Below, piece by piece: positions 27,531-57,159 of a DNA stretch of 64,000 bases. Each line of letters starts with the position of its first letter. Position 1 is the stretch's first letter. The DNA is taken from positions 14,436,453-14,500,452 of the forward strand of contig OZ034978.1 in assembly GCA_964030785.1 (NCBI GenBank). Reading direction: 5' to 3'. Source of the stretch: Siderastrea siderea. Its lineage: Eukaryota > Cnidaria > Anthozoa > Scleractinia > Rhizangiidae. The position numbers and the translations under genes were made by a program. Under the pieces are notes generated by a model that worked only from the letters and a program-made list of their open reading frames with translations, was not told the DNA's origin and made no database searches.

Positions 27531-28120
27531 TTCTGGTGCACGCAAACCTAAGTAACAATGCATTTTCCATTTGAAACTAATTTGCATGAACCGGTTTCAT
27601 CTTCATTAAAAACCGGTAGCTAGTGCAGTGTTATTCGCGTGCGTAACTTGAGTTGTCACGCAACACTGTCATTGTAAGCAGAGTTGGGGAGTTGCGTGGC
27701 GTGACCGCCAAAGTAACGGCTCCAGAAGACAATGTAGTTCAACCTCGTTCCTAGAGTCTCTCTTCTTGCCGTCTCCGAAGAGAGATCTTTTGAACGAGGT
27801 CGAGTGTTGCCATACGTGTTTGTTTTCAATTATGTAAAAGCGCGACCAATGGGCCAAAACAAGTTGCGTGTCTTTAGTGACGTGCACAAAATTAACGAGA
27901 AGTACAACATTATTTCGTCAATTCATTGTCCTTCGAGGGCTATGTATTGTATAATTTTTTCAAATAAATACAGGTGTATTTTCATGATTTTAAATTGTCG
28001 CTAGACAGTTTTTTGTAAGCGATGCAGATAAGAAGTATGGTTCTATATATGAAATTAAACCAGATAAGTTCCCATCAAATGAGACTTATAAATAGCTAAA
28101 CTGCTCCTTGTAAATTAAAT

Positions 28121-28126
28121 TTTATT
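28121..28126 (-). promoter_or_regulatory. Polyadenylation signal of the unit 1 receptor-like gene
   Basis: AATAAA on the minus strand, 185 bases past the stop at 28311. The same hexamer and context are kept in unit 2 at 49136-49141. Confidence 0.5.
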
Positions 28127-28310
28127 TCTTATCAGGAAGTATTCGTTTACTGGGTTGCTGATAAAAGTGGTTTTGTCTGTATCAGTTTAACTTTTTAACT
28201 CCTAAATTTTGAATTTTGAATGTCCAATACCTTGAGTCCCGTCCAAAAAATCGCTACGCGTGGTTTTTCTATTCCTGTTGTCCGTGTTGGAAATCCTGAT
28301 GAAACGCTCT

Positions 28311-31300
28311 CTAGAGTTTGCGTATCACTCGTCTCATGGTTTGGCTCTCCATTTTAAAGGAAGTTAACGTTTGTTCTCTCCACCAGTCGTCGAATGTACC
28401 TTTCCACAAAGGTGGCTTCCTGGATTTCAAAATCGTTAGATAATTAAAGTCGTCGATTAACTTGGAAAATGTTTCGGAAGCAAGCCTTAAAACAAGATTC
28501 AGTGAATCTTTAGACGGTTCAGAGAAAACTTTTTTCATGCGAAGTGACGCAAAATTCGAGATGTTTACTACTCTGAAATTCTGGCTCAGATACTGAGTGA
28601 CAAGTTCCAAGTTCCAAAGTTGAAACTGTAACATCACATACTTTGTTGTAATTGCTTGCCAATCACAGCGTAGAACTGAATAGTAGTTGCGCAGAGTATA
28701 GTTTACCCTCGATAGTACACGAGAAGGGTTCATCGTACCGAAAATAACCGATTGGGCGTGTTTTAAATGTTTTTGCAACCGATTAAGGCTGTATTTGAAT
28801 TTTAGGTACTGGTAAGACATGCGTGGCCTTTTCGAAACCAACGCTTCTTGAGCACATGTCATCTGGTTCAGGTGGTCCAGTCTCTCTTCATTGTACATCT
28901 GTGCTGTAGTTCTTTGATGTCGGCTTTCTTCCGTAGCGTCTGATGACTTTCTACCATTGCTTTCCTCACTGGGCTCGCACAACTTTCTTGAGTACGTTCG
29001 AGTAACGGCGTCAAACATTTGTGTATAAAAAAGTTTTTCGTCCTCCAGAAATAAAAGAAAGTCGTGACTGGTGATAAGATACGCTACTATCAACAGCTCT
29101 TTTTCGTGAAAAGCATCCATCAACTCCTGGCGTTCTACGTTTTCACTGTAGTCGTGGTAGACTTTATTAAGTTCAAGAGATGCCTTGAAGAGACTTCCAT
29201 CTCCATTTTCATAGCCCCTGCATTCATTACGCTCAATGCCTTCTTGAACAGTTTGAAACTCGTCTTCCGCGGCTAAATGAGGTGAAAAGTGGCCTGGACT
29301 TATTTCAAAGAAGAGATGGAACAGAAGGAAGTATTCAGCCTCTGCGCTAGGATAGCTTAATGTTCCCCCGAATTTCTCAATGACTGCCACGACTTTGCAC
29401 CAAGGACTCTTCCAATCACAAGCAACACCACCAACGAGCATTGCCAAATACATAGGGGTTATGCCGTCTTTATTAGGACAGTTTACGTCCATGCCCGTTA
29501 ATTTTTTCTTAGAAAGCAAATCGTGGATAAACCGCCACATTCCTCGAACAGCGGCGAGATGGTACAAGGTTAAGTCACGTCGACTTTCCTTACAGCCGAT
29601 GTTTACCGTTCCATTTTGAAGAAGACTGTTTAAAATAATGGATGCTGATGTCGATGCGACGTCCACTTCTAAAGCTGTTAGAATATTTTTCTGATGAAAA
29701 TTAGGGAATGGTGTATATTTGATAGAATACAACACTGAAAGCCAAAGAGGAGAAAAGGCGTCTGCATTTTTTAATTTAAAGTAAGGATTAGCTCCCCAGG
29801 AAAGGAATTTTTTAATTGCGAATATGTTTGCTCCTTGTGCTGCTCTGTGAAATGCGTTATAGCCTTCTGCATCAAAGCACTCATCGATAACCTTGGTTCC
29901 TCGAGCATGAGACTTGATCGCTGTGGCCAGTGGACCGTCACCAGTCCGAAAAGTTGTCGTGGATCCGTTTTCATCACGTATCTCTTCGTAGTCATCCAAA
30001 AAGTAGTTGAAAAGAAAATTATCTGATACTATGTATTCCTGCAGATCTTCCTTTTCTAGGTACTGAGAAAGATAATGTAGGTAATGTAACTTGTGAAAAG
30101 ATATCATATGCAATGAAGAACTTTCAAACGTCTCTCCGCATAAAATAGCTACTGTCACCTTGTGCTTTGTCAGCACTTTAGACATGTGACGCCCGCCCCT
30201 GCGTAGATAGGTCAAAAGCGGGCTTAAACCTGACCAATGATCATGGCAATTGACATCCGCTCCTGCTTGTAACATGACGTTTACAGAGCGAACCAAATTA
30301 TATCTCACCAAGAAAATAAGTAAGGGACAGTGAAATAACCCTGGATGATTAAATATTCTTGTCAAGGCTTTCTTCAAGGACTCTGGAATCCACGTTGGCT
30401 CGTATGTTTTGTAAAAAGTGAGAGCAACTTTTGTTAGGACCGTGTGCAAATTGCTGTCAAAAAGAAAAACCAGTGGGGTTACTGTAAAAACCAAATAACT
30501 ACGTTTGAAGCTACCGGCGCTCCCGGTTAGAAGAAGCGAAGCATTAGCTTTTTGTTCTAATAGCTCTAAAGCAGTAGAGTATGTTTTTACCATGGAATCT
30601 GAGAAAATCGAGATGCGATTTGCATCATTGCTGTTCGAAAAACTGTTAGTAATTCGTATCAGCGCATTTAGCCAAGAATACTGAAGGTAGCCTTTTTCCC
30701 AGAGTTCTTTCTCGTCCAAATCTTGTTTTATCCAGTCTATAGGTTTCTCAACATATAAATCAGCAAAATATTCTCTACCAACAAATTCAACGTTCTTGGC
30801 AAAGTAGTATAATGCGGTCATGTTCTGGTCATCTTTTGCAAAGAAGTCTGCACCTAAGTCAAGCAAAGAGCAGACACTGCTCGTGGCAAGACATGCTGCG
30901 GCACTGTGAAGTGGGGTGGAAAAGTTGAAGCTTCTTTGATTTATTTTTGCCCCATTTTCAACCAGAAGGGTCACTAGTGTTATCATCCCATGACAGGAAG
31001 CTATATGGAGTGGAGTCGAACCATTGCAGTCACGTGCATTGACGTCTGCATTCTGTGTAACAAGCAATTTGGCAACACTATGATAGCCATGCATGGCTGC
31101 AATATGCAAGGGGGTAAATCCGCATGGGCAGTAAGTCTGTTGTAGGTCAGCCAGCGCAAGCTGGGGAACGAAATTGGCGTTGCAGCGTACAGACGTATCA
31201 ACGCCTGCAACTAGCATCACCTTTAGCACATTATAGTTGTTTAAATGAACAGCCTCGTGTAAGGGACGTCTACCTGCAGCATTAAGACAGTTGACAGCAC

Positions 31301-33397
31301 TTTCGGGTTGACGTAACAAAGACGCAATCACAGATACATGTCCGTTCCTAATTGCGGCATGTAGCGCTGTCTCACGTATTTGTAAGTGGTAACTGTCATG
31401 CATATGAGCGCTGATGTCCTTCCACTTTGTCTTTGCTGGATTCACTTTCATAAGAGTGCTGTCGTTTATGCAATCATCTCTAATACCCTCACTTAGTAGA
31501 TAGTCCACTACAGATCTGTGGCCTCCAGCAGCAGCATGATGTAATGAAACATCATCCACGACTCCACCAGCTTCCTTGAGGATTTCAACGACTTCAAGAT
31601 GTCCATTTGTAGCTGCCAAATGGACAGCAGTGTTGTTGCAGCCGGTCGTTTTCATAACATTCACGTGGTGTTCAATAAGAAATTTCATAACATCAACGTT
31701 GCCCTCCTGCGCAGCGACGTGCAACAAAGAATATTCGCACGCCCTTCTCTTGCACTCACGGACGGGATCTTTTTCCACTGAAGTGCTTGAAAGGTTCACA
31801 TCTAGACATATGACAGTGTGGTTTAGGTTTGCTCCTCTTCCGAAAAGAGCGATTAGATTTTTAAGGCGTCCAGCAGCCGCAGCCATAAAGGCAGGCGTGC
31901 GATGGTCATTGTCTAAAAAATCGACGTCAAAGTAATGCTTGGCCAAAAGCTCAGTCACTTCTGAAGTGGCTACACGTGAACTGATGTGTAAGGCAGTGGT
32001 GTTGGATTCATCAGAACTGTTGACTAGACTTGAAGGGAGTGATAGAAATTCGTGTACCTGATGTTCGTTTGATCCGCCCTCCACGATGTGGCATGTTAAA
32101 TAGAATGCTTCCTCTGGTGACAATGGTCTCTCCATCCCCTTTGCATGCTGAAGATAATATTTTGCTAGACGTTCGTGGCCATATTGTTTCTTTACGTAAT
32201 AAAATCTTCCCTTGTTAGTATCATTGGTTAGCCATTCAGACAAAGAAGCGTGATAAATTCGCACTAGATCATTTTCCGATCCATACCACAAGAATAACGA
32301 CACCTCGTCGAGTTTTGGCATGAAATCATACTCGAAGTCGAGGTATGGATTGTCCTGCTTAAGGAGAGTGTATATGTCTTGAGCAGATAGTGGTGCATAT
32401 GACGCAACCAAGACTTCAAAGATTTCACGTAGAGACTGGAAGGATTCACTTGTGCTAAATTTTCGTGCAAAGTATAACTGGTATACGCTGCCTACAGTTT
32501 CTGGGATGTTCTGAGTCCAGTTGACGCTTTCTGGTGTCTCAAATAAAACGTTTAACACAAGCCTAACAAACAGAAAATTTCCTTGGGATTTCTCGACAAA
32601 GTTGGAAACAATTCTCTGAGAAGGAGTGTTGTTGTCCTTGATTGAAAAGTACTTCTTTATCCTAGATTTAATTGAATCTTTTAATGGATATATCTTGTGC
32701 GACAAATATCTGTCAATATCCTCTAAATTTCGTTTGTCGTCTGACCGAAGCTCGAATCTTTGTATTCCTTTAAGGCTTGTAGTAACGGTGCTCATATTAC
32801 GCGAGGTAATGATCAGTTTAAGCCATCTTGGAAGTCGCTGAACTTTCGACATGAGAATGTTCAGAATTTCCGCTTTGTTAGCTGTGCACTCGTCCAAGGC
32901 ATCAATAATGATATACCAAGGATGATTGGGTTGGTGCTGCAATTTTGTCAAAGGTGTAACGATTCCTTCTTGGAAACACCACTCCGGATCCTGTGGACAG
33001 TTGTTTTGCAGTACTCTGTGCACAAAGGAATCACTCAAAATGATTTCACGGTATTCCTCGATATTCGAAGCAGCCATATTTGCAAGATTTTGGACAAATT
33101 TAGCTGCATTTTGCGTCCCTTTGTCAGAGTGCATGCAGAAATGATACCCCAGAATTCTGTTGTGAATAAATTGGCTTGACGTTTTGGAACAAAGCAAATG
33201 ACAGACGAAAGCTGTCTTGCCAGAACCAGGGTCTCCAATAAGTAAAGCACCACGGCCCTCTGTCTGCTCCAGGATGTCGTCCATTTCCTGGTAAAGCCAG
33301 TGTCGCCCCATAAAGTCCGACCTCGCCGACTTTATAAATTCACTGAAGTCAAAGTACTTGAGCTTCAAAACATCATCGTATATTTTGATAGCACATC
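28311..33397 (-). CDS. Unit 1, exon 4: NACHT/STAND ATPase plus ankyrin repeats
   Basis: 5087 nt without a stop. The true exon start is at 33397, after TTCTTTAG; the first full codon is Cys (CAIKIYDDV). Walker A is GDPGSGKT (protein residues 544-551) and Walker B is IIIDALDEC (652-660), followed by sensor-like LKLIITSRN and a winged-helix part. The GRHWLY entry and the acidic DALDE box resemble TANC1/TANC2 STAND proteins. Many ankyrin repeats follow (for example STPLHIASCHGMITLVTLLV), interrupted by non-repeat stretches. The last 390 residues are helical and unrecognised. All ATPase motifs are intact. The stop is TAG at 28311. Confidence 0.88.
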
Positions 33398-33512
33398 CTA
33401 AAGAAAAAAGAAAAACCAGCAGTAAAGGACATATTATTTAAAGCCATTAAACTACATGGTAATGTTCCTGGATGTTTTAAAATCGGGAATTTCACCAAAT
33501 CATTTGACGTAC
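33398..33512. other. Intron 3 of unit 1 receptor-like gene
   Basis: 115 bp, GTACGT donor and CTTTAG acceptor, with a pyrimidine tract. Kept in unit 2 (54846-54960). Confidence 0.7.
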
Positions 33513-33665
33513 CGTCTTTTATAAATGTGTTATCATTCGAGAGATCACACAGGTTCCAAAAGACTAACATCACCATCCATAGTAACGTAGCATAGGAAGG
33601 CTGGACAGCAGCTGGATTCCTTTCACGTTTTGCTTTTGTTGAGCTCTGATGATCGGAGGAAGCAG
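33513..33665 (-). CDS. Unit 1, exon 3: Ser-rich linker with hydrophobic segment
   Basis: 153 nt, phase 1-1. Starts AASSDHQSST, clearly related to exon 2. It then has a basic stretch (KAKRERN) and a run of hydrophobic residues (YATLLWMVMLVFWNL, protein 463-477), followed by CDLSNDNTFIKDG. The hydrophobic run is conserved in unit 2 and could be a buried helix or a short membrane segment. The donor is GTACGT at 33512. Confidence 0.8.
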
Positions 33666-33924
33666 CTATTGAAATGGAATAAGTACTGAATCACCGACAA
33701 ATGAATTTTTTACGAACAGGGCTATTATTCCTAGCATTACAGCATTTTGTGTAGCACGTTTTGGGCTCAGACACCTCTCTTAAGCTGCCAGATACATTTG
33801 CTAGCAAAAGTTTTGTTGTAGGTTCAACACTCCGGTGACTATAGTCATAAAAACATTTATAATATCAGACGTCCGTGAGATGTCTCACTGGGATGCGTTT
33901 ACAGCATCATTCGTTAGAGGGTAC

Positions 33925-34035
33925 CTGCATGGTGCTCAGTCCTGGTTATTCCTTCAGCCCGTTGAGAAGGTTGGACAGTAGACTGAAACCTTTCGCTTTG
34001 TGTGCGTGTTGAGCTCTGATCATCGGAAGAAGCAT
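33925..34035 (-). CDS. Unit 1, exon 2: Ser-rich linker
   Basis: 111 nt, phase 1-1, between TTTCACCAG and a GTACCC donor. Encodes DASSDDQSSTRTQSER and then VQPSQRAEG. At DNA level its first 30 bases match exon 3, so the two are products of exon duplication. It is polar, likely disordered, and links the glycosyltransferase to the NACHT part. Confidence 0.8.
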
Positions 34036-34512
34036 CTGGTGAAATAAAATATGACGAGACTTCAGTTACGGACACAATTTGTAGGAAAAAACAAACAATT
34101 ACATTGTTCACGAGCAGTTCCACTTTTACTTGAATAGATTTTGTACCATTTGGCCATAAGACAAGCTGCCAGTCTGCTTCACTGAAAATTTACCATGCTG
34201 GCAGTTTTTTGGTGTTGCGGTTGTTGTGTTCACCAACTAACGTAAAACAAAAGATTAAAAAGACAATAAACGATACCCAGACCTAAACACAATAGCTAAC
34301 CAACAATACTGACAACAGTTTCTGTAACAACAAGAAACACCCAAAAAGTTTCAAGAGGTGACCTTACTTGGGGCGTAACACCCACAGCTTTCAGGAGAGG
34401 CTTTATAGAGGAAATTATGCCCTATTCAGCATGCCCACCTGCAATCCTCCGTTGCTCATCTCTTAAATACTTAGTTCCTCTACACGAAATGCTGAAGCTG
34501 GTCAGACGTATT
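34036..34512. other. Intron 1 of unit 1, part before the foldback
   Basis: Aligns with 55479-55905 of unit 2 with several small indels. No exon or regulatory signal that I can support. Confidence 0.5.
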
Positions 34513-34516
34513 TTAA

Positions 34517-36123
34517 GGTGTTTCGATACAGTTTTTTTGGGACCATACCTAACTTTTTGAATCGGCTCTTAGACAGTCCTTTCCTTGTCAGGTCAAAGTG
34601 AAATTTGCAATACTTGTTGGTTTTGGATTGATCTTTAGCGTGGTTTACATTTTGTGAAAATCGATATTTCCATGACAACGATAAACAAAAACCTCGAAAA
34701 CTCTAAAATTAAAATTTTCCGCGATCCAGATTTCACTTTGAAAAGCAAATACCAACATCTTAAACTGTGGTGTATGGCACACAAAATGTACAAGAACAAA
34801 AAAATTCTTTATGTTTGTTTTGAAGTAAATCGCAAAAACATTTCCAACCTTAGTTTTTGCATAGTAATAGTAAATGCGCCGAAAAATAATCAATGCTTTG
34901 ATGAAATGGCTCGAAAATACATTCAAAATGTGTCGTTTACTTAGTATTTTACGCCTAGAAAGTTTTGCTGAAACTGGTGTTCGCGATCTCGAGAACCAAT
35001 TGTTTTTCTAAGATCATCCGCGTAATAATTTTGTGGTAATTTTTGAATTTGAGCGTTTTTGCGAAAATCTTAAGAACGGCTCGATGAATTTTTTTTAAAA
35101 ACATTAAACACGCGTGCTTGACGATGTGTCCAATTTTAGTATCGAGTCTTATTAACATTGATTCACTGGAACACTTTCAGATTTAACGTTTAAGAGGAAG
35201 TATGAACCGACGGAAAAGCTTGCGTTACATATTCACATTTGGCAAATAAATGCTAATATATTCAAAGTAATGCGCAAAGCATTCCTCCATGATTTTTACT
35301 TTTCGTTGTAATCTACAGTGCAACAAAGAACAAAGAAACCAGATAAAAATCACGAAGCAATGAATTACGCATTACTTTGAATATATTAGCATTTACTTGC
35401 CAACTGTGAGTTTGTAACGCAACCTTTCCCGTCGGTTCATACGTCCTTTTTAGCGTTAAATCTAAAAGTGTTCCAGTGAATCAATGTTAATAAGACTCGA
35501 TACTAAAATTGGTCACATCGTCAAGCACGCGTGTTTAATGTTTTAAAAAAATCCATCGAGCCGTTCTTAAGATTTTCGCAAAAGCGCCTAAATTCAAAAA
35601 TTACCACAAAATTATTACGCGAATGATCTTACAAAAACAATTCGTTCTCGAGATCGCGAACACTAGTTCCAACAAAACTTTCTAGGCGTAAAATACTAAG
35701 TAAAAGGCACATTTTGAAAATATTTTCGAGCCATTCCATCAAAGCATTGATTGTTTTTCGGTGCATTTACTATTACTATGCAAAAACTAAGGTTGAAAAC
35801 GTTTTTGCGATTTACTTCGAAACAAACATAGAGATTTTTTTTGTTCTTGTATATTTTGTTTGCCATACACCTCAGTTTAAGATGTTGGTGTTTGCTTTTC
35901 AAAGCGAAGTCTGGATCGTGCAAAATTGCAATTTTAGTGTTTTCGAGGTTTTTGTTTATCGTTGTCATGGAAATATCGATTTTCACAAAATGTAAACCGC
36001 GCTAAAGTTCAATTCAAAACCAAAAAGTACTGCAAATTTCACGTTGATCCGACAAGATAAAGACTGTCTAAGAGCCGATTTTAAAAGTTAGGTATGGTCC
36101 CAAAAAAACTGTATCGAAGCACC
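34517..36123. mobile_element. 1.6-kb foldback element at a TTAA site, intron 1 of unit 1
   Basis: Flanked by TTAA (34513-34516 and 36124-36127). The ends GGTGTTTCGATACAGTTTTT and AAAAACTGTATCGAAGCACC are inverted, and pairing continues for about 790 bp per arm to a loop near 35300-35342. Both arms keep similar open stretches of about 95 codons on both strands; none matches a known domain. It is absent at the same place in unit 2 (near 55910), so it inserted after the duplication or was lost there. TTAA suggests piggyBac or Kolobok mobilisation. Confidence 0.85.
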
Positions 36124-36255
36124 TTAAGGCCTTCTCGCCACGGTTACCATCATTGTTTCTTCTCTCTTTTTGTGTGTTCATTTATCTTTGTATGTTGTCT
36201 GTGGTGTGGCAAAATGAAAAAAAAAATTGCGTTCAAAAAAAGTTTAAAGTCATAC

Positions 36256-37459
36256 CAAGAACCAGGTTGATCATGCTATCAAGGAGAACTTTGCTTTGTT
36301 TGGCCCAGCTGTATTCCTTCTCATAGGAGTCACGCAATTGTTTGGCTTCTTCAAGTCGCCTCTGCCTGTTTTTGTCCCAGATGGACTTGATGGCTGCAGC
36401 CCATAACTTGGGATCCTCTGAGTCAATCACACATGTTGACCCAAATGTTACTTTGCTTAGGGCCTCTCCAAACCCTGAATTCCTACTGACAAGCACAGGC
36501 AGACCAGCTGATAGGGCCTCAAGACCTGTCAACCCAAAGCCCTCTGTTCTGGAAGGCATGAGTACAAGATCAACCTCACAAAGTAATGATTTCAAACTCT
36601 CTCGGTTCTTGACATAGCTTCTAACCTTCAGCCGATTTGCAGGAATATCACATTGAAGTAAACGGTCCCTTATCTCCTCGTGTTTCCCATTGGACGCTCC
36701 AACGAAAACAAGATGAGTGTCAGTGAGCATAGCAACAGCTCTGGCTGCAATGTCAAAACCCTTTAACTCGAAATCTTCAGCATCTCCGCGGCCAAACACC
36801 AAGATACTGCGGTGTTGTCTCTCTTCTAGAACTTGTTTAACACTCAAACATTCATCAAAAACACCAGGAGTAAAGTCAAGAACAGTTTGATCCTTTTGAC
36901 AACCGCGGAGATACGAGCGAAAGGCCTCGCTCAACTTGGGTCCAACTCCTACAACAAAGTTAGCCATTTCGCACAACTCTACTTCAACATTGTGCTTTTC
37001 TTCACCCTTTGAAATAGGATTTGAATAGGTTTTAAACATTCCTAATTCCTCTGGGTCTGTGTGTACCACTTGCACCCACTTGCATTTGCGAGACTGCCTA
37101 ATAACTTGAGCCTGGCGACCGAGTTTCACCCCATGACCAACGATTATGTCAATTTGCAAATGCTCTGGAGGAAAACTAAGCCACTCCAGTTCATCATAAC
37201 CAGGCTGCCGTGTTGCCTCTACAATCTTTATGTTGTGACCTAGGGCAATGTTCTTATCTTTCTCGCTGCATTGTGGTAAAAAGAAACTGATCTCCACTTC
37301 AGGGAATTTGGCCAGCTGAATGGCTAACTCTCTGTTTATGGTGGAAAGGCCTCCCTTGCTTGATCCCCATTCAGAGGCCAAAATGGTGACTTTAACTGTG
37401 TTCGATCCATTTGCTTGTTCATGTTCTTGAGAGTCTCGTAAAGTGGATGCCACTGTCAT
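36256..37459 (-). CDS. Unit 1, exon 1: GT4-family glycosyltransferase
   Basis: The ATG at 37459 is the first Met in frame; a TAA lies 18 bases upstream. 401 codons plus one base, then a GTATGA donor at 36255. A GT-B fold is indicated by the N-terminal GGLSTINREL loop (residues 36-45), VVHTDPEE in the acceptor domain, the LVFGRG and LVFVGASNG strands of the nucleotide-sugar domain and the EX7E motif EGFGLTGLE (306-314) with the following AGLPVLVS. All are typical of retaining GT4 enzymes. No signal peptide, so it is cytosolic. Catalytic motifs look intact; donor and acceptor are unknown. Confidence 0.88.
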
Positions 37460-37580
37460 AATGGCTTCTAGTTTACCTTAACGTGGTTGTTAGGAGAGAG
37501 TGATGAACGCCTAGAAACAGAAAGATATACACATTAAAAACACGTGTTAAGGTTAGTATTGTCAAAAGCCTTTGCCAGGG
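37460..37580 (-). promoter_or_regulatory. 5' leader of the receptor-like gene, with an upstream-intron acceptor
   Basis: On the minus strand a branch-like CTAAC, a pyrimidine tract and TTTCTGTTTCTAG end at 37513, followed by 54 leader bases to the ATG. The start exon thus probably follows a 5' intron, and the first exon lies beyond 37513, within or past the BEL element. Kept in unit 2 (57160-57280). Confidence 0.5.
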
Positions 37581-37890
37581 TGTGACTGCTGCGCAGTGTA
37601 GTCAGCGGTATGTTTTTGCATGTGCTTAGCTGCCGCGCCCGTTTTCTCCTGTAAGCTACCCGCCATTTTGTTTTGTTTTCATGTGGTCTTAAGGTTTGTA
37701 AAGTTATCGCTGTTCATCGGATCTTTGCTGTCCTTTTAAACGGCCTGAACGATTGTTATCTCGAGAATCAGGATTCAAACTCACAACTAAACGGCATGTG
37801 CTGTACCTGACCTGTGAATAAACAAAGTTTGGGACGTTCTGTTATTTCGTCCCAACTCTTCTCGTTATGTACGACGGGAGGCCAGCCACA
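37581..37890 (+). repeat. 5' LTR of BEL copy 1
   Basis: 310 bp, TG...CA. It holds a segment of about 70 bp (37673-37745) that the 3' LTR lacks, and that the 5' LTR of copy 2 keeps. The region CTGTGAATAAAC near 37811 is a possible AATAAA polyadenylation site. Confidence 0.92.
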
Positions 37891-37924
37891 TTAACAGTCG
37901 TTTAACGATCTGCGTATAGAAGTC

Positions 37925-40440
37925 ATGTCCGTCAACAAAGAAGCAAGATCCGAGGCCCAGGCCAATGTGGCGCTGGAAGAAGAAACTGAAGAATCAAGGA
38001 AGCGTTCCCTGACGGAAAACAACTCGACTTGAAAACAAGCAACTTGAAAACCAAGAAAAGTGAATTGGTCAAGAGTATGAGAGGTACATTGCGGAAGCGA
38101 GGTCATTCAACTAATCTAGTAGAATTTAAGAAAGAATTCAGTGAAGCTGATATTATGTATTCTGAATTCCAAGACATGGTTGATGAGATTAAGGCTTTTG
38201 TGAAACCGGGTGAGAATGTGGAAAGTATTGAAAGAATGGTTGATCAAGTTGGCAGAGAATGGTCAAAATTTGAGTGTGACATTAGGTCAGAGATTAAATA
38301 CCTGGAATTTATTGAACAACACCTGGATGATTCTAGTTCTGAAACGTCGAAAAGGTCCAGTCGGGCATCCAAGAAAAGTGACAAGTCAAAGATAAGTTCC
38401 ATTGGTCATGTTGAAGACGATAGGTTTCAGTTACAAACGGAAGAAGCTGCCCTAAAAACTAAGCTTGCCTATGTAGAGAAGGAACGTATACTGAGATTAG
38501 AACACAGAAAGACTGAGTTGGCCAAATTAGAGCAGGAAAGAAAATTGGAAGAACTAAGAATACAAAGTGAGCTTGCCTAGAATCAAGCAAAGCTTAATGT
38601 ATGCATGTCAGCGGAGAAAGAAGGACTTGCTCGATGACCGGGGCCTAGACTCGATTCCCCCAGCTGGTAAGGATAAGGACATGGATAAATTCCTTAATTC
38701 AATTCCAGTTACAAGTAAGAGTGATCTCTCTCCGAGTCAGCAAGAAACTACCTATTCTTCAACTCAGTTAAATGGTGCCCAACCCACTTTCAGTTCCCCG
38801 CATGTAGACCATGGAGTGCACAGTACGTTAAGCCCCAAGGCCACACCCTTTCAACCACACTCTGTTGTCTTAGAAAAATGTATGGATAAACTAGTGGAAA
38901 CAAGAAAAGCCCCAGGGGCATTGGACCCCGCCGTTTTCCCCCTCCCCTCGCGGTGCAAAATACAGCACGGTCACTCAAGATATCAGCACAGGTGGAGTAA
39001 ATTTTTGAAGTTGGTAATTTATCTTACTATTGACGTGGTTTGCTGCCATCCCCCCCCCCCCCCCACGTCTTCTCTGTACCCTCCCGCTTGTGATAACATG
39101 GATCCCTAAAAGTATGAACACCTTTCCCATCCCTCTTTCCTTGGTCATCTATCTGTTCTGACACGCACGAAGAAGAACGTGACGAAATAGTTTTGACCAT
39201 AGCGTGACTCAGTTACGCCACGTTTTTTTAAAACGAACTGACAAAGAAAAATAATCTTAAAATCTCAAGGGAACGGTTATCTACCGAAAAAAGAAACGTA
39301 CAAGTCTACTTTTAGGTCGATGAATGATCTGGCGAAAGCAAGGGACTTCCCCGAATCGGCTTCTGTGTTTCAGTGATGTAATGTTTACAAAGCTCCCTAG
39401 CACATTCGTTCTTCCTTTCATCGAAGGGGTTTTTATGCCATTCAATCGCCAGTAATTTTCTACACCAACGTTCATGAAAATTCTGGCGAATAAACGCTAA
39501 ACGAACGAAGATTACCGGCAAGTATTGCTTTGACCGAGCGGAGGTCTGGGGCAAGTGACGATCCCAAAAAAAACACACACACACAAAAAAACGGGTATTA
39601 CTAGACCCCGTCCTGACGGCGGGGTAACAAGTAGTAAGGTGGTGGCAGCTACTATGGAGCGAAACCTAGTGAACAGGCAATTAGCAATCTCAGGGCAACT
39701 ACCTAAAATCGCAATCCCAGTCTTTGGTGGAGATCCTCTAGAGTATCCTACATGGAACAGTTCCTTCACTGCCCTTATTGATTCCAAACCAATGGACGCG
39801 CAGACAAAACTAAACTTCCTACATCAGTATATCTCAGGAAAGCCCAAACAAGTTGTTGAACAGTATATGTTAATTGGTAGTGAAGATGCCTATCAGTCTG
39901 CGAGGTCGTTGGTACAAGAAAGGTACGGTAACTGCAATGTGGTTGGGACAGCCTTTATGAACAAACTGGAGAACTGGCCGAAGATTGGCATAAGAGATGC
40001 GGAGGGTTTAAGAGATTTTCTGACTTCCTGCAAAAGATAATTGCCGCCAGGGAAACTACTCCTAGTCTTGCTGTTTTGGACTTTGCGAAGGAGAATGTTA
40101 AAACTCTAAACAAGTTGCCATTGCAAATTCAGAATAAGTGGAGAGGGATAGCCCAGCGGTGTAGAGTCTCAAAAGGAGATGGTGCTTATCCTACTTTCTC
40201 TGAGTTTGCTTCATTTGTGAAAGAGTGCGCAGAGAAGGAAACATTCCCGAGCTTGAGGAGCTGTCCAAAACCAAAGAGTTTGTTAGATCCAGAGGGCCAT
40301 TTAGACGTTCACCAAGAGGCGAGGAGGCCGTTTCTTTCGGAACCCATGTATCGGATCCAAGCAAGAATGTGACTGCCCAGGGACAAGGCGAAAAAGTGAA
40401 CCCCCCACCAGGTTCCCAAGAGAAGAATTAGAAGAAAAAT
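37925..40440 (+). pseudogene. BEL copy 1 gag (broken)
   Basis: The likely start is ATG 37925. A 14-bp deletion near 38012, absent from copy 2, shifts the frame. 38029-38580 keeps a coiled-coil, Lys/Glu-rich N-terminal part. After the insertion at 38905-39625, 39640-40040 keeps the DUF1759-type gag core (PKIAIPVFGGDPLEYPTW) and 40076-40372 its C-terminal part in another frame. Confidence 0.8.
38905..39625 (+). mobile_element. Insertion in BEL gag with 6-bp repeat flanks
   Basis: Starts AAAAGCCCCAGGGGCA and ends GACGGCGGGGT. AACAAG occurs on both sides (38899-38904 and 39626-39631), and removal of one copy plus the insert lets the gag frame run on. A shorter relative lies at 26996-27218. It contains a C-run at 39050-39064 and a CA/A-rich segment at 39570-39590. 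No recognised protein. Confidence 0.65.
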
Positions 40441-41495
40441 ACCGAAGCATGTCTGTTTTGTAAAGAAGAACATCACCCAAACGAGTGTAAAAAGTTTGCG
40501 GAGAAGCCACACAAGGAAACGAAGGATTTCTTCTATAGAAAGTTTCTCTGTCTTGAATGTGCCTCTAGCAGTCAGCATCAACTAGCCTCCTGTAAGAACA
40601 GACTTAAATGTCGCACGTGTTTTGGGAATCCCCCTACTTGCCTGCAAAATCAGAAAACACCCGCGGAAAGCATTACGAACTGTTTGTACCATCCCAGAAC
40701 AAGAGGGCGGCTCGGATCATGCCATGGTTGTACCTGTTTGGGTCAGACAAGTTAGCCAACCCAGTAAGGAAGTCTTGCAGTAAGCAGTGCTGGATGATCA
40801 GTCTAATGTGAGTTTTGTGTAGCAATGTTTTTGTGAGAAATTGAGCTTGCAAGGACCACCAACTGATCTACTGCTTGCGACAGTGCAAGGGTGAAACGGA
40901 CATGTACCAAGCAATCGTATTTGTGGAGTTGAAGTGTTGGATTTTAGAAGGGAGCATGCTGTGAGGCTACCCATGATGTTCAAGCGCGTTATTATTCCAG
41001 CCAGTCGCTCGCAGATTCCTAAAGCCAGTGTTGCCCGGAAATGGGAACATCTTCGCCCTATTGCTGAAGAACTCATGCCGTACAATCCAAGTGTAGAAAT
41101 CTCTTTGCTGATTCGCAATAATTGTCCTAATATTGTCAGACCAAGAGACGTCTTAGTGGATGGTGAAGGCGACCCTTATGGCCGGCGATCTTTGATGGGA
41201 TGGGGCATAATTGTCAAGGTGTGCAAAACTGCGGATGAAGACAACAGTAGAGAAGGAACGTGCAACAAGGTGGTGGTCAAGGAAACCCATGAACACTTTG
41301 CCTTTACGACAAAGGTGAAAGAGGTTATCAACCCACAGACGATCCTTAAGGGTCTTGAATCAGACTTTGCAGAGTGCTCTGCAGAAACCAAGCCTTATTC
41401 AACTGAAGACAGGAGATCCCTCAAGATCCAAGAGAATGGTATTGTTAAGACACCAGTTGGGCACTACGAGATGCCTCTTTCCTTGAAGTCGGATC
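40441..41495 (+). pseudogene. BEL copy 1 zinc knuckles and protease region (broken)
   Basis: 40446-40660 encodes CLFCKEEHHPNECKKF and further Cys clusters (CLECASSSQHQLASC, CRTC), the nucleocapsid-type knuckles. 40795-41220 holds the A17/DUF1758 aspartic-protease region, but frameshifts near 40808 and 40890 separate the active-site part from the later open frame at 40934-41566. The element cannot make a working polyprotein. Confidence 0.75.
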
Positions 41496-43070
41496 TTGAA
41501 AGTGTTTCTCCCTTTCAACCGCGATCTAGCTGTCAAAAGATGGCACCAGCTTGTAGCAAGATTTAAGAGACAGCCCAGGTTCCTGGAAGATTATCGCTTG
41601 TTCATGAAAGACGTGATTGCCTTATGTGCCGAAGAGGTGCCTCCAGATCGCCTTGGAGTTCAGGATGGGATGGTGAACTATGTGCCCCACTCCGGTGTTT
41701 ATCACCCGAGAAAACCAAATCAGATTGGAGTTGTTTTTTATTGTTCGGCCCAGCATGAAGGAGTGTCCCTAAATGATCACCTGTTGCAAGGACCCGACCT
41801 CATGAACACTCTTCTAGGGATCCTGTGCAGATTCAGACAAGAAAGTGTAGCCTTTATGACTGACCTACAAAGTACGTTTCATCAGTTTGTGGTGTCACAG
41901 GAACACAGAGATCTCCTGCGTTTTTTTGTGGTGGAAAGACGGGGATCCTGCAAATGAGGTTGTTGAGTAGAGGATGAAGGTTCATCTTCTTGGTGCTGTT
42001 AGCTCACCTGGCTGCGCAAACTTTGGTCTTAAGAGAGCAGCAGATGATGGGGAGGAAGAGTATGGCGAAGAAGCTGTTGAGTTCATAAGGAGAGATTTTT
42101 ATGTACATGATGGACTAACGTCAGTCCCGACTGCAGAGCAAACTGTTACCCTGATAAAGGCAAGTCAAGGAATCTGCGCCAAGGCCGGTCTGAAACTGCA
42201 CAAAATCTCGTCAAACAAAAGAGAAGTTCTTGAGATGATTCCAGCTGAAGACCGCGCCAAAGGACTAAATAGTTGGATTTGAAGAATGATCCATTCCCCT
42301 TGGAACGTGCCTTGGGAGTAGTATGGTGCATTGAGAATGACAGCTTTCAATTTCGCATCAAGTTGCGGGACCGTCCCCTAACGCGACGTGGCGTTCTGGC
42401 AACAGTTAGTTCTATTTACGATCCAGGTGGTTTCGTTGCCCGTGTTACCTTAAAGGGTAAACAAGTTCTACAGCAAATCTGTCGAGACAAGCTTGATTGG
42501 GACAGCCCAGTTCCAGAGAGTATGCATACACAGTGAGAAAAATGGCGTCGGGATGTTCTGACTCTTGAACAGCTGCGTATTCAACGTTGCTTCAAGCCCG
42601 AGAACTTTGGTCAAGTTAAAGCCTGTGAATTACACCATTTCTCAGACGCTAGTGTTGAGGGATATAGACAGTGTTCGTACCTTAGACTAATTAACGTGGA
42701 GGACAGAGCGCACTGTTCTCTTGTCATTGGAAAGTCTCGAGTAGCCCCTTTGAAACAAATCACTGTGCCAAGACTTGAGTTAGCAGCCGCTACTGTTTCA
42801 GCAAATACGAGTAAATTTCTTCGCCAAGAATTGTCTTACACGGACATTAAGGAACATTTCTGGACAGACAGTAAAATTGTCCTTGGTTATGTCAACAACG
42901 AAGCAAAGAGGTTCCATGTGTACGTGGCAAATCGTATACAGCAAATTCGTGATGTCCTGGCTGTCATGCTTCTTGGCTGTATGTCAGTACTGACGTTAAC
43001 CCTGCAGACCATGCTTCACGTGGCCTTTCAGCATCACAATTGCTTCAAGGAAGCAATTGGCTAACTGGAC
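41496..43070 (+). pseudogene. BEL copy 1 reverse transcriptase and RNase H (broken)
   Basis: 41496-41957 covers the fingers and palm (QPRFLEDYRLFMKDVIALC, VAFMTDLQSTFHQF), and 41974-42282 the catalytic box. That box reads YVHD instead of YVDD because of one base change at 42114 (CAT for GAT). RNase H sequence (ITVPRLELAAATVS, FWTDSKIVLGYV) is at 42696-43064. Stops and shifts lie between the parts. Confidence 0.85.
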
Positions 43071-43225
43071 CGCCATTCCTTAGGAGGAATGGATCGTTTC
43101 AGCCTGAGAAGACAGAAGAGTTTCAAGTAACCGAGTCTGATCCTTAAGTAAAGAAAGCTGTCGTCTTCACATCTCATGTAGAGAGTTCAGCTACCTAACC
43201 CCCTGAACCGTTAAAGTCGAGCCGT

Positions 43226-49766: not shown

Positions 49767-52700
49767 TTAAGCTAGGGATTTTTTCTTGGGATCGCCAAAG
49801 GCGATTCTAAAAAAAGGTGACGTTAGTTCTTCCCACCACCAGTCGTCGAATGTACCTTTCCACAAAGGTGGCTTCCTGAATTTCAAAATCGATAGGTAAT
49901 TAAAGTCGTCAACTAACTCGGAAAAATTTTCGGAAGCAAGCCTTAAAACAAGTTTCAGTGAATCGTTAGACGGTTCAGAGAAAACTTTTTTCATGCGAAG
50001 TGACGCAAAATCTGAGATGTTTACAACTCTGAAATTCTGGGAAAGATACTGAGTGACAAGTCTCAAGTTCCAACGTTGAAACTCTAACATCACATACTTA
50101 GTTGTAATCGCTTGCCAATCACAGCGAAGAACTGAATAGTAATTGTGCAGAGTATCGTTTACCCTCGATAGTACACGAGAAGGGTTTTGAACGATAATAA
50201 CCGATTGGGTGTGTTTTAAATGTTCCTGCAACCCATCAAAGCTGCGTTTGAGTTTCAGGTATTGGTACAACATGCGTGGCCCTTTCCAATTCAACGCTCT
50301 TTTAGCACATATCATTTGGTCCAGGTGGTCCGTGATCTCATCGTAGTACATCTGTGTTGTAGTTCTTTCTTGTTGGCTTTCTTCGGTAGTATCTGTTGAC
50401 TTTCTACTGCTACGCTCCTCACTGCGCTCGCACAACTTCCTTGTGTGCGGTCTAGTAACGGCGTCAAACATTTGTGTAAGATTATTTTTCTCTTTATCCA
50501 TAAATGAAAGAAAATCACTTCTGATAATACCATGCTCTGATTTCAAAACATACATCACGGGTAGAAAGTATCTGAGCAAATCCTGGTGTTTCTCGTTTTC
50601 AATGTAGTCGTAGAAGACTTTATCAAGTTTAAAAGATGCCTTTAAGAGACTGCCATCTCTGGCTTGATAGCTGTCGCATTCGTCGTCTTGAAAACGTTGA
50701 AATTCGTCATTTCCTAAATGAGCAAACAAGCGGCCTGGACTCGTTTCAAAGAAGAGATGGAAGAAAAGAAAGTACTCAGCCTGTATGGTAGGATAGCTAA
50801 GTGATCCACCGAATTTCTCAATGACTGCCACGACTTTGCACCAAGGACTCTTCCAATCACAAGCAATACCACCGACGAGCACTGCTAAGTACATAGGGGT
50901 TATGCCATCTTTATTGGGACAGTTGACGTCCATGCCCGTTAATTTCTTGTTCGAAAGCAAATCATGGATAAGCCGCCACATTCCTCGAACAGCCGCGATA
51001 TGGTACAAGGTTAAGTCACGTCGACGTTCGTTACAGCCGATGTTTACTGTCTCATTTTGTAGAAGACTGTTTAAAATAATGGAGGCTGATGTCGATGCGA
51101 CTTCCACTTCTAAAGCTCTTAGAATATTTTTCTGATGAAAATTGCGGAATACTGTATATTTGATAGAATATAACACTGAAAGCCAAAGAGGAGAAAAGCC
51201 GTCTGCATTTCTTAATTTTAAGTAAGGATTAGCTCCCCAGGTGAGGAATTTTTCAATTGCGAATATGTTTGCTCCTTGCGCTGCTCTGTGAAATGCGTTA
51301 TAGCCTTCTGCATCAAAACACTCGTTGATAACCTCGGTTCCTCGAGGATGAGACTTGATCGCTATGGCAAGTGGACCGTCACCAGACCGAAACGTTTTTG
51401 ACGATCCATTTTGATCACGTACCTCTTCGTAGTCATCCAAAAAGTAGTCGAAAAGAAAATTATCTGATTCTATGTATTCCTGCAAATCTTCCCTTACTAG
51501 GTACTGAGAAAGATAATGTAAGTAATGTAACTTGTGATAAGATATCATGTGCAATGAAGATCTGTTAAACATCTCTCCGCACGAAATATCTACTGTCACC
51601 TTGTGCTTTGTGAGGACTTTAGACATGTGACGCCCGCCCCTCCGTAGATAGGTCAAAAGCGGGCTTAAACCTGACCGATCATCGTGGCAATTGACATATG
51701 CACCGGCTTGTAACATAACGTTTACAGAGCGAACCAAATTACACCTCACCAAGAAAACAAGTAGTCAGCATCCAAGCAACCCAAAATGATTGAATTGTCT
51801 TGCCAAGGCTTTCTTAAAGCTTAAAGATCCTGGAATCCACGTTGGCTCGTATGGTTTGATGATAGTCAGAGCAACCTTTTTTAGGAGCGTGTACAAATTG
51901 CTATCAAAAAGAAAAACCGGTGGGGTTGCTGTATAGACCAAATAACTACGTTTGAGGCTACCAGCGCTCCCAGTGAGAAGAAGCGATGCACTGGCTTTCT
52001 TTTCTAGTAGCTCTAAAGCAATTTGGTATGTTTTCACCATAGATTTTGAGAAAATCCAGATATAATTTGCATCAATGCTGTTCGAAAAACTGTTAGTAAT
52101 TCGTATCAGTGCATTTAACCAGGAATATTGAAGTTCCCCTTTTTCCCAGGGTTCTTTCTTGTCTAACTCTTCAATCCACTTTATAGGTTTCTCCACATAT
52201 AAGTCAGCAAAATACTCTTTACCAACAAATTCAATGTTTTTGGCAAAGTAGTACAATGCGGTCTTGTCCCTGCCGTCTTTTGCAAAGAAGTCTCCACCTA
52301 AGTCAAGCAAAGTGCAGAAAATGCTCGTAACAAGACACGCTGCGGCACTGTGAAGTGGAGTGGAAAAGTTGAAGCTTCCTTGGTTTGTTTTTGCCCCATT
52401 TTCAACCAGAAAGGTCACTAGTGTTATCATCCCATGGCAGGAAGCAATATGCAGCGGAGTCGACCCATTGCAGTCAGGTGCATTGACGTCTGCATTCTGT
52501 GTAACAAGCAACTTGGCAACACTATGATAGCCATACATGGCTGCAATATGCAAGGGAGTAAATCCGCATGGACAGTAAGTCTCTTGTAGGCCAGCCAGAG
52601 CAAGCTGGGGAACGAAATTGGCGTTGCACCGTACAGAAGTATCAACGCCTGTAGCTAGCATTTCTTTTAGCACATTATGGTTGTCTAAATGAACGGCCTC

Positions 52701-54845
52701 GTGTAAGGGACGTCTACCTGCAGCATTAAGGCAGTTGATAGCACTTTCTGGTTGACGCATCAAAGACTTAATTACAGATACGTGTCCCTTTCTAACTGCA
52801 GCATGTAGCGCTGTCTCGCGCATTTGTAAGTGGTAACTGTCGTGCATATGTACCCTGATGTCCTTCCAATTCATCTTTGCTGCATTCCTTTTCGTAAGAG
52901 TGCTATCGTTTATACAATAATCTCTAATTCCCTCATTTAGTAGATAATCCACTACAGATCTGTGGCCTCCAGCAGCAGCATGATGTAATGAAACATCATC
53001 CAAAACGCCACCAGCTTCCTTGAGGGTTTTAACGACTTCAAGATGTCCATTTGTAGCTGCCAAATGGACAGCAGAGTTATTACAGCCGGTGGCTTTCATA
53101 ACATTCACCTGGTGTTTGATAAGAAATTTCACAACATCAACGTTGCCCTCCTGCGCAGCGACGTGCAACAAAGAATATTGGCACGACCTACTCCTACACT
53201 CATGCACGGGATCATTTGCCAATGAAGAGCTTGAAAGCTTAATCTCTAGACATGTGACAGTGTGGTTTAGGTTAGCTCCTCTTCCGAAGAGAAAAATCAG
53301 ATTTTTAAGGCGTCCAGCAGCCGCAGCCATAAAGGAAGGGGTGCGATGGTCGTTATCTAAATAATCGATGTCTAAGAAATGCTTGGCCAAAAGCTCAGTT
53401 ACCTCTGAAGTGGCTGCACGTGAGCTGATGTGTAAGGCAGTGGTGTTGGATTCATCAGAACTGTTGACTAGACTTGAAGGGAGTGATAAGAATTCGTGTA
53501 CCTGATGTTCATTTGAACCTCCCTCTACGATGTGGCATGTTAAATAGAAGGCTTCTTCTGGTGACAATGGTCTCTCCATACCCTTTGTATGCTGAAGATA
53601 ATATTTTGCTAGACGTTCGTGGCCATATTGTTTCTTTACGTAATAAAATCTCCCCTTGTTAGTATCACTGGTTAGCCATTGTGATAAAGAAGCGTGGTAA
53701 ATTCGCACTAGATCATTTTCCGATCCATACCACAAGAATAACGACACCTCGTCGAGTTTTGGAATGAAATCATACTCGAAGTCGAGGCCTGGATTGTCCT
53801 GCTTAAGGAGAGAGTATATGTCCTGATCAGATAGTGGTGCATATGACGCAACCAAGACTTCAAAGATTTGACGAAGAGATTGGAAGGATTCACTTGTGCT
53901 AAATTTTCGTGCAAAGTATAATTGATAAACGCTGCCTACCGTTTCTGGGATGTTCTCAGTCCAGTTCTCAGTCCAGTCCAGGTGCTTCAAATAAAACGTT
54001 TAACAGAAGCCTTACGAATAAAAAGTTTCCTTGGGATTTCTCGACCAGGCTGGAAACAATTCGTTGACTGGGTGTATCGTTGTCCCTGACTGAAAAATAT
54101 GCCTTCATCTTAGATATAACTGAATCTTTTACTGGGTATATCTTGTGCGCCAAATATGTATCAATATCCTCTAAATTTCTTTCGTCGTCTGACCGAAGCT
54201 CCAGTCTTTGCATTCCCTTAAGGCTTGTAGTAACTGTGCTCATATTACGTGAGGTAATGATCAGTTTCAGCCATCTTGGAAGTCGCCGAACTTTCGACAT
54301 GAGAATGTTCAGAATTTCCGCTTTGTTAGCTGTGCACTCGTCCAACGCATCAATAATGATATACCAGGGAAGTTTGGGTTGGTGCTGCAATTTTGTCAAA
54401 GGTGTAACGATTCCTTCTTGGAAACACCACTCCGGATCCTGTGGACAGTTGTTTTGCAGTACTCTGTGCACAAAGGAATCACTCAAAATGATTTCACGGT
54501 ATTCCTCGATACTCAAAGCAACCATATTTGCAAGATTTTGGACAAATTTAGCCGCATTTTGTGTGCCTTTGTCAGAGTGCATGCAGAAATGATACCCCAG
54601 AATTCTGTTGTGAATAAATTGGCTTGACGTTTTGGAACAAAGCAAATGACAAACAAACGCTGTCTTGCCAGAACCAGGGTCTCCAATAAGTAAAACACCA
54701 CGGCCCTCTGTCTGCTCCAGGATTTCGTCCATTTCATGGTAAAGCCATTGTCGCCCAATAAAGTCCGATCTCGCCGACTTTATAAACTCACCGAAGTCAA
54801 AGTACTTGAGCTTCAAAACATCATCGTATCTTTTGATAGCACATC
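49767..54845 (-). pseudogene. Unit 2, exon 4: NACHT-ankyrin, broken in two places
   Basis: Aligned with unit 1 exon 4, the sequence is intact from 54845 through NACHT (GDPGSGKT and IIIDALDEC kept). It then shifts frame near 53970, where a 12-nt direct repeat (CTGGACTGAGAA, minus strand) gives 4 extra bases and a TGA at 53968. The ankyrin frame resumes from 53990 to 51765, stops at a TGA where unit 1 has a Pro codon, and continues in the same frame from 51764 to 49767. Ankyrin and C-terminal parts differ from unit 1 at many positions. A truncated product ending after NACHT is possible. Confidence 0.85.
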
Positions 54846-54960
54846 CTAAAGAAAAAAGAAAAACCAGCAGTAAAGAACATATTATTTAAAGCCATTAAAC
54901 TACATTGTAATGTTCCTGGATGTTTTAAAATCGGGAATTTCACCAAATCATTTGACGTAC

Positions 54961-55113
54961 CGTCTTTTATGAATGTGTTATCATTCGAGAGTTCACACAG
55001 GCTCCAAAAGAGTAACATCATCACCCATAGTAACGTAGCATAGGAAGGCTGGACAGCGGCTGGATTCCTTTCACGTTTTGTTTTTGTTGAGCTCTGATGA
55101 TCAGAGGAAGCAG
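54961..55113 (-). CDS. Unit 2, exon 3: linker with hydrophobic segment
   Basis: 153 nt, open, same borders as unit 1. The hydrophobic run is kept with conservative changes (LLWVMMLLFWSL), which supports a structural role. Confidence 0.75.
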
Positions 55114-55367
55114 CTGTTGAAATGAAATAAGTACTGAATCACCAACAAATGAATTATGTACAAACAGGTCTATCACACTTCCTAGCAATACAGTGATTTG
55201 TGTAGCAGGTTTGGGGCTCAGACACCACTGCTAAGTTGCCGGACACTTTTGCAACCAGCCTTTTTGTTGTAGGTTCAAACTATAGTCATAAAAACACTTT
55301 TACTATCAAAGACGTCCATAAGGTGTCTGACAGAGATGCGTTTCGAACAACATTCGTTAGAGCGTAC

Positions 55368-55478
55368 CTGCATGGTGCTCAGCCATGGTTATGCCTTCAG
55401 TCCGTTGAAAAGCCTGGGCAGTAGATTCAAACCTTTCGCTTTGTGTGCCTGTTGAGCTCTGATCATCGGAAGAAGCAT
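55368..55478 (-). CDS. Unit 2, exon 2: Ser-rich linker
   Basis: 111 nt, open, DASSDDQSSTGTQSERFES. Acceptor TTTCAACAG, donor GTACGC. Several amino-acid changes relative to unit 1 fit a loosely constrained linker. Confidence 0.75.
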
Positions 55479-55955
55479 CTGTTGAAATAAAATATGACGA
55501 GATAACGTTACTGACACAATTTGTTGGAAGATAAAAAAAACCGTTGTTTGACGATCAATTCTTCTGTTACTGGAAATGGAGTTTGCACCATTTAGTCACA
55601 AGACAAGCTGTCAGTCTGCTTCACTTAAAAATTAATGCTGTTGGCAGTTTCTTGGTATTGTGGATGTTGTGATCACCAAATGACGTAAAACAAAAGATTG
55701 AAAAGACAATAAACAACACCCACAGCTAAACTGAATAGTTAACCAAGAATAGTTTCCGTAAGACCAAGAAGCACCCAAAATGTTTCAAGAGGTGCCCTTG
55801 CAGCTTTCAAGGAAGGGTAATTTATGCCCTATTCAGTAAGCCCACCTGCAATTCTCGGTTGCTCACACCTTTAATATTCAGTTCGTCTACACGAAATGCT
55901 GAAGTTGCTATATTTTAAAACCACATTGCATGCAAAAAACCGTTTAAATTCATAC
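55479..55955. other. Intron 1 of unit 2 (empty site for the foldback)
   Basis: Short counterpart of 34036-36255 that lacks the 1.6-kb foldback element. No exon. Confidence 0.7.
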
Positions 55956-57159
55956 CAACAACCAGGTTGATCATGCTATCAAGAAGATCTTTGCTTTGTT
56001 TGGCCCAGCTGTATTCCTTCTCATAGGAGTCACGCAATTCTTTGGCTTCCTCAAGTCGCTTCTGCCTGTTTTGGCCCCAGATAGACGTGATGGCTGCAGC
56101 CCATACCGTGGGATCCTCTGAGTCAATCACACAGGATAAACCAAATGGTACTTGGCTTAGGGCTTCTCCAAACCCTGAATTCTTACTGACAAGCACAGGC
56201 AGACCAGCTGATAGGGCCTCAAGACCTGTCAACCCAAAGCCCTCTGTTCTGGAAGGCATGAGTACAAGATCAACCTCACAAAGTAATGATTTCAACTTCT
56301 CTCGGTTCTTGACATAGCTTCTAACCTTCAGCCGATTTGCAGGAATATCACATTGAAGTAAACGGTCCCTTATCTCCTCGTGTTTCCCATTGGACGCTCC
56401 AACGAAAACAAGATGAGTGTCAGTGAGCATAGCAACAGCTCTGGCTGCAATGTCAAAACCCTTTAACTCGAAATCTTCAGCATCTCCGCGGCCAAACACC
56501 AAGATACTGCGGTGTTGTCTCTCTTCTAGAACTTGTTTAACACTCAAACATTCATCAAAAACACCAGGAGTAAAGTCAAGAACAGTTTGATCCTTTTGAC
56601 AACCGCGGAGATACGAGCGAAAGGCCTCGCTCAACTTGGGTCCAACTCCTACAACAAAGTTAGCCATTTCGCACAGCTCTACTTCAACATTGTGCTTTTC
56701 TTCACCCTTTGAAATAGGATTTGAATAGGCTTTAAACATTCCTAATTCCTCTGGGTCTGTGTGTACCACTTGCACCCACTTGCATTTGCGAGACTGCCTA
56801 ATAACTTGAGCCTGGCGACCGAGTTTCACCCCATGACCAACGATTATGTCAATTTGCAAATGCTCTGGAGGAAAACTAAGCCATTCCAGTTCATCATAAC
56901 CAGGCTGCCGTGTTGCCTCTACAATCTTTATGTTGTGACCTAGGGCAATGTTCTTATCTTTCTCGCTGCATTGTGGTAGAAAGAAACTGATCTCCACTTC
57001 AGGGAATTTGGCCAGCTGAATGGCTAACTCTCTGTTTATGGTGGAAAGGCCTCCCTTGCTTGATCCCCATTCGGAGGCCAAAATGGTGACTTTAACTGTG
57101 TTCGATCCATTTGCTTGTTCATGTTCTTGAGATTCTCGTAAAGTGGATGCCACGGTCAT
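55956..57159 (-). CDS. Unit 2, exon 1: GT4-family glycosyltransferase
   Basis: Same length (1204 nt) and motifs as unit 1, including EX7E and the GGLSTINREL loop. The first 960 bases of the exon differ from unit 1 at only about seven places, while the last 240 bases (55956-56190) carry some twenty changes. The reading frame is intact and most changes are conservative, so the enzyme part may still be functional here. Confidence 0.86.

Follow-up and report, generated by a model that had tools for sequence, protein, structure and literature searches.

A predicted stony-coral gene with a GT4-conflict glycosyltransferase at the front of a STAND-ankyrin protein whose relatives carry DUF4559

Glycosyltransferase domains combined with NACHT are reported in the available parts of PMC10236652, PMC8260672, and PMC12314368; the last describes glycosyltransferase-NACHT genes with leucine-rich repeats (LRRs), and NACHT is missing there from most glycosyltransferase genes that carry tetratricopeptide repeats (TPRs) or ankyrin repeats. 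According to the accessible text of PMC8195603, glycosyltransferase family 4 (GT4) domains occur in conflict systems, with more than 500 paralogues in Acropora digitifera, and are proposed to act as effectors and to have been laterally transferred. Glycosyltransferase domains are also mentioned among conflict-system effectors in the excerpted text of PMC7159879. Here, we describe a locus in a 64,000-nucleotide stretch of Siderastrea siderea DNA (contig OZ034978.1, positions 14,436,453 to 14,500,452; the window), where four exons are predicted to form a single stony-coral gene. On balance, we lean toward reading it as a gene for an intracellular STAND (NLR-like) immune switch, with a GT4-conflict domain at the front where relatives carry DUF4559. 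An initial annotation of the stretch had referred to coral NLR surveys for NACHT with glycosyltransferases, which the first three reports bear out in substance.

The gene lies on the minus strand, and its exons measure 1204, 111, 153, and 5087 nt (Table 1). The three introns all have GT..AG ends and phase 1, the frame runs for 2184 codons with its sole stop at the end, and an in-frame TAA begins 21 nt 5' of the ATG. Recomputation returned the same exon borders, phases (1, 1, 1), and 2184-residue frame as the initial annotation, whose claim of one gene is supported by the profile, predicted-structure, paralogue, and junction evidence given below. Since the frame stays open under all four usages of exons 2 and 3 (either or both omitted), alternative splicing is possible.

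In a Pfam scan of the product, GT4-conflict (PF20706) covers residues 26-390 (2.8e-87; 293.7 bits versus a cut-off of 26). By this profile, the domain is a member of a conflict-system family, an assignment absent from the first reading. For the GT4 enzyme with an intact EX7E motif proposed there, the enzyme fold is supported by the match, by E306/E314, and by the GT-B fold of the predicted structure. The central part of the protein matches NPHP3_N at 527-689 (72.8 bits versus 24.8), NACHT at 541-699 (31.8 versus 26.7), and the HTH_TANC1 winged helix at 802-930 (61 versus 27), with a TANC1-type lid at 24.8 bits, below its cut-off of 29.1. Ankyrin families also exceed their cut-offs. Given the GT4-conflict score and the other families above threshold, these matches are not due to chance. 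They agree with the earlier proposals of a STAND ATPase with intact Walker A and B motifs (544-551 and 650-660) and of a TANC-like switch. The "many ankyrin repeats" need refinement: units are clear at 956-1345 and only faint at 1524-1542 and 1668-1693 in a single-consensus search. No LRR family appears in the Pfam scan, ankyrin being found instead, so the protein is not an NLR in the strict sense (NACHT plus LRR). The scan likewise contains no TPR family; in TANC proteins, TPRs are expected after the ankyrin repeats.

The TANC1-type winged helix, together with a relative (P0198) that its source calls ankyrin repeat domain-containing protein 50, would fit a TANC- or ANKRD50-type cell-biological scaffold that acquired an enzyme and is not an immune switch. 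We consider this improbable, as the GT4 belongs to a conflict-system family, its coral relatives are fused to NACHT-LRR, STING, DED, and ubiquitin, and the gene lies in a tandem duplication in which one copy is broken, a pattern usual for fast-turnover immune genes.

The DUF4559 comparison rests on the STAND half. Residues 440-960 as the query retrieved 212 proteins; among the best 120 of these, 16 carry DUF4559, and BLAST recovers the same 16. The window gene shares STAND, ankyrin, and C-terminal homology with this coral DUF4559-STAND-ankyrin family and lacks its DUF4559 front. In the window gene, GT4 occupies the position that DUF4559 has in relatives of the STAND-ankyrin half, a point absent from the initial annotation. 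DUF4559 is not found in the Pfam scan of the product, and an overlooked DUF4559 exon was rejected because the 16 domains, used as queries against the window, gave a best E of 0.15. A HEPN-type identity for DUF4559 was dropped at a profile-comparison probability of 1.6% (16 DUF4559 and 6 HEPN_DZIP3 rows).

The junction between the two halves is readable in the exons. Exon 2 directly follows the GT4 exon, and the 5' half of exon 3 copies it (75% over 86 bp), while the 3' half matches the DUF4559-type proteins P0121 (69% over 23 residues) and P0123 (54% over 24). Because exon 3 combines a copy of exon 2 with a STAND-family hydrophobic segment, the GT4/STAND join lies inside an exon. In P0121 and P0123, the sequence after this segment resembles intron 3 read through in frame, and this intron therefore seems common to the family. 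A hydrophobic stretch precedes the NTPase in all 17 relatives scored (20 were compared, of which 3 begin too late to show it). Hydrophobicity over 19 residues reaches 1.6 in 11 of the 17 and 1.41 in the window protein. The segment may act as a membrane anchor, which we keep as a possibility only.

The chimeric exon bears directly on whether there are two genes, one for GT4 that stops with exon 1 and one for STAND-ankyrin downstream, the long frame being a by-product of compatible phases. Single-exon coral GT4 open reading frames (ORFs) are numerous (5966 of 8000 scored candidates matched, most of them unspliced ORF calls), and intron 1 contains a single ATTAAA in both tandem copies of the gene, copy A (described so far) and copy B. 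However, exon 3 fuses GT4-side and STAND-side sequence, AATAAA was not found before the end of exon 4 (copy A introns and copy B intron 1 searched), the splice sites are conserved in copy B, and glycosyltransferase-NACHT proteins are published (PMC12314368, available part). Two genes are therefore given little credence.

The histories of the two halves were compared in trees. The GT4 tree held 85 domains: the two window copies, 10 ORFs, and, from the best 120 of 376 long proteins that contain this GT4 domain, 52 hand-labeled as other than NACHT-LRR and 21 of the 62 NACHT-LRR proteins; six unlabeled proteins of the 120 were left out. The window copies fall beside coral ORFs, and P0068, an Acropora muricata protein that carries both GT4 and DUF4559, falls beside Acropora proteins. 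Grouping the window copies with P0068 is rejected (approximately unbiased test, p-AU 0.0004), this three-row group having been defined after the first tree was seen. In the STAND tree (31 parts), one clade (100/99) unites copies A and B with P0121, and P0068 falls among the DUF4559 types of Acropora (p-AU 1e-40). Two independent grafts are thus likely: the trees and exon structure suggest that the GT4 exon was probably grafted through phase-1 introns, the recipient being an older gene of the DUF4559-STAND-ankyrin type, and that the Acropora line seems to have acquired a similar graft on its own. At least 22 changes of partner domain are needed on the GT4 tree (12 states, 75 rows), against a mean of 46.8 and a minimum of 41 in 200 shuffles, so GT4 partners are partly inherited and often exchanged. 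By hand labels, 81 of the 120 GT4 proteins have a NACHT-type switch and two (P0068 and P0090) have ankyrin families. The broader proposal is one of output-module exchange on a fixed STAND-ankyrin sensor by phase-1 exon grafting, with DUF4559 replaced by GT4, the breakpoint in exon 3, an independent Acropora graft, and glycosylation as the alarm; taken whole, we hold it tentatively, at somewhat less than even weight.

Other coral GT4-conflict proteins (P0087, P0077, P0078, P0024, P0027, P0064, P0007, and P0074) have varied partners, including STING with TRADD-like_N and PH, MIF4G, ubiquitin, DED, OTU with HEPN_DZIP3, NACHT, and LRR, and Roc-COR. The named relatives among the matches listed are stony corals (Oculina, Stylophora, Acropora, Montipora, Porites, Pocillopora, and Desmophyllum).

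Copy B belongs to a unit of about 20 kb repeated in the window (27700-44876 versus 48698-64000, matched in six pieces). Both copies contain the chimeric exon 3, so the graft is older than the duplication. Synonymous distance between the copies is 0.026 in GT4 codons 1-300, 0.092 in codons 301-401, 0.13 in exon 2, 0.10 in exon 3, and, in exon 4, 0.21 before and 0.26 after the copy B frameshift. On approximate counts, GT4 codons 1-300 differ from the first 288 codons of exon 4 with a Fisher p of 8e-7 and from codons 301-401 with a Fisher p of 0.09. The GT4 core was probably homogenized between the copies by later gene conversion, to judge from these distances. Positions 33627-32728 (exon 3, intron 3, and P-loop) are 95-96% identical between the copies, with neighboring windows at 84-85%, and this patch looks like a second conversion tract. 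Intron 1 of copy A contains a foldback insertion of about 1.7 kb, lacking in copy B, whose arms (34513-35099 and 35541-36127) are 92% complementary; its site coincides with the fall in A/B identity from about 96% to 84%.

The foldback element and the broken copy B could indicate a decaying tandem-array member without a working product. We regard this as very improbable, since copy A is open across all 2184 codons and the ratio of nonsynonymous to synonymous change (dN/dS) against copy B is 0.22 in GT4 codons 1-300 and, in exon 4, 0.25 ahead of the frameshift and 0.39 beyond it. As copy B is broken, dN/dS is not a clean test of selection on copy A.

Several observations weigh against the switch-with-grafted-front interpretation. 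GT4 occurs in only one of the 120 STAND relatives listed (P0068), itself one uncorroborated and possibly merged gene model, and 104 of the 120 show neither a DUF4559 nor a GT4 front, although most of these begin at or after the start of exon 4, like unspliced ORF calls, so that their front is hidden. Gene conversion can displace GT4 domains within their tree and distort it. In exon 4 of copy B, the frame is shifted near 53.97 kb and meets a stop near 51.77 kb, and dN/dS between the copies is 0.68 in GT4 codons 301-401, 0.77 in exon 2, and 0.53 in exon 3. The hydrophobic segment is under the usual 19-residue threshold in the window protein and in 6 of the 17 relatives. Matches to the exon 2/3 linker in other GT4 proteins (E 0.26 for P0080 and P0086; i-Evalue 0.026 for P0240) are too weak, and a linker shared with them was rejected. 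To these are added the intron 1 ATTAAA sites mentioned above.

As for function, the initial annotation offered a glycosylation reaction or a binding module, two options that are not separable here. Glycosylation is favored because the catalytic residues are intact and bacterial GT4 domains are paired with nucleoside triphosphate (NTP) switches. Alternatively, GT4 could be a noncatalytic module that senses or binds a nucleotide sugar, glycan, or invader molecule, the output lying elsewhere, for example, in the helical C-terminus. The first Glu of EX7E is lost in 11 of 240 GT4 domains (9 Asp, 1 Lys, and 1 Ser), so the fold can outlive the motif, and the last 324 residues, modeled as a helical bundle with moderate confidence (pLDDT, the predicted local distance difference test, of 75), have no PDB match by fold at E 0.001, leaving room for an output there. 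However, that Glu is kept in the other 229, the window gene retains all catalytic positions tabulated in the comparison, and GT4 has many different partner domains, the pattern that an output module would show. A binding role is accordingly rather unlikely.

In the mechanism proposed here, the ankyrin array, perhaps with the helical C-terminus, would keep the switch off and detect an invader or a host molecule in a disturbed state. Nucleotide exchange in the TANC-like NTPase would then open the protein, which would probably oligomerize. The clustered GT4 domains could transfer sugar from a nucleotide sugar to a target, thereby blocking or marking it; uridine diphosphate (UDP)-N-acetylglucosamine or UDP-glucose are first guesses for the donor, from the nearest folds. 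The hydrophobic segment may tether the switch at a membrane. If GT4 is catalytic, glycosylation would join cleavage and cell-death signaling among the outputs of animal NLR-like switches.

Table 1. Features of the locus (window positions)
Feature	Positions	Strand
Exon 1: start codon, linker, GT4-conflict glycosyltransferase (residues 1-401)	36256..37459	-
EX7E catalytic motif, E306 to E314	36518..36544	-
Foldback insertion in copy A intron 1, lacking in copy B	34501..36217	.
Exon 2: short linker exon, phase 1-1	33925..34035	-
Exon 3: chimeric (5' half, exon 2 copy; 3' half, STAND-family hydrophobic segment)	33513..33665	-
Hydrophobic segment core (residues 466-475), possible membrane contact	33556..33585	-
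Exon 4: STAND NTPase, winged helix, ankyrin repeats, C-terminal helical region, stop codon	28311..33397	-
NPHP3_N/NACHT NTPase, TANC1-type lid (below cut-off), winged helix (residues 527-930)	32076..33287	-
Walker A GDPGSGKT (544-551)	33213..33236	-
Walker B stretch WYIIIDALDEC (650-660)	32886..32918	-
Recognizable ankyrin array (residues 956-1345)	30831..32000	-
C-terminal region (1861-2184), helical bundle in model	28314..29285	-
AATAAA 3' of stop codon	28121..28126	-
Tandem copy B: intact GT4 exon, conserved splice sites, exon 4 broken	49770..57159	-

Upstream of the copies lie retroelement-like stretches (38034-44876 and 58855-64000) that are 95-98% identical to each other; this part of the repeated unit gave one Integrase_H2C2 match, below cut-off. 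Copy B has additional sequence between 57757 and 58855. Outside the duplicated unit, 22357-23334 is a plus-strand reverse transcriptase (RVT_1) ORF. Plus-strand ORFs at 9376-21215 match LDL-receptor class B, calcium-binding EGF, Sushi, and cadherin domains; from these matches, they are likely exons of one receptor-like gene.

Among prokaryotes, a scan of 84,980 species genomes gave 10 loci, six of which match only part of GT4. The other four (L001 to L004; for bacterial GT4-conflict proteins, see also PMC8195603) are near-full-length matches at 29-31% identity and, like the window protein, join GT4-conflict and an NTP switch in one protein. Their switches are nSTAND3, NB-ARC plus TPR, Roc-COR plus LRR, and AAA plus TPR (AAA_16 below cut-off), respectively, with repeats in L002 to L004; unlike in the window protein, where it is N-terminal, their GT4 is C-terminal. 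PADLOC matched exon 4 with two models (PDC-M72A and Ankyrin) at the ankyrin stretch and gave no match for the GT4 exon, L001, or L002. The bacterial thiol-synthesis GT4 enzymes MshA and BshA differ in being stand-alone metabolic enzymes, at 15-19% identity.

The coral glycosyltransferase-NACHT-LRR proteins (PMC12314368; see also PMC10236652 and PMC8260672) have an N-terminal GT4-conflict domain (up to 75% identical to that of the window among the matches listed), a central NACHT, and repeats behind; they differ in having LRRs where the window protein has ankyrin repeats, and its NTPase is TANC1-like. The coral DUF4559-STAND-ankyrin proteins (P0121, P0123, P0141, and others) share the STAND, winged helix, ankyrin, and C-terminal parts, P0121 being 80% identical over 467-1338, but have DUF4559 at the front. 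P0068 (uncharacterized, 1859 aa) likewise unites GT4-conflict, NPHP3_N/NACHT, the TANC1 winged helix, and ankyrin, but retains DUF4559 between GT4 and NACHT; it is 68% identical in GT4 and 53% in STAND, and neither part is sister to that of the window. The same sensor body can thus be compared with two front modules, in the window gene and its DUF4559-type sister P0121, with a parallel in Acropora. With more than 500 paralogues in one coral and roles only predicted in the available text of PMC8195603, a join of enzyme and sensor located to the base makes output shuffling testable. We found no report of a STAND-ankyrin gene with GT4 substituted for DUF4559 in the literature searched, outside of which figures or supplements may list single cases. 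The kind of protein appears to be known already; this variant, and its readable graft, appear to be new.
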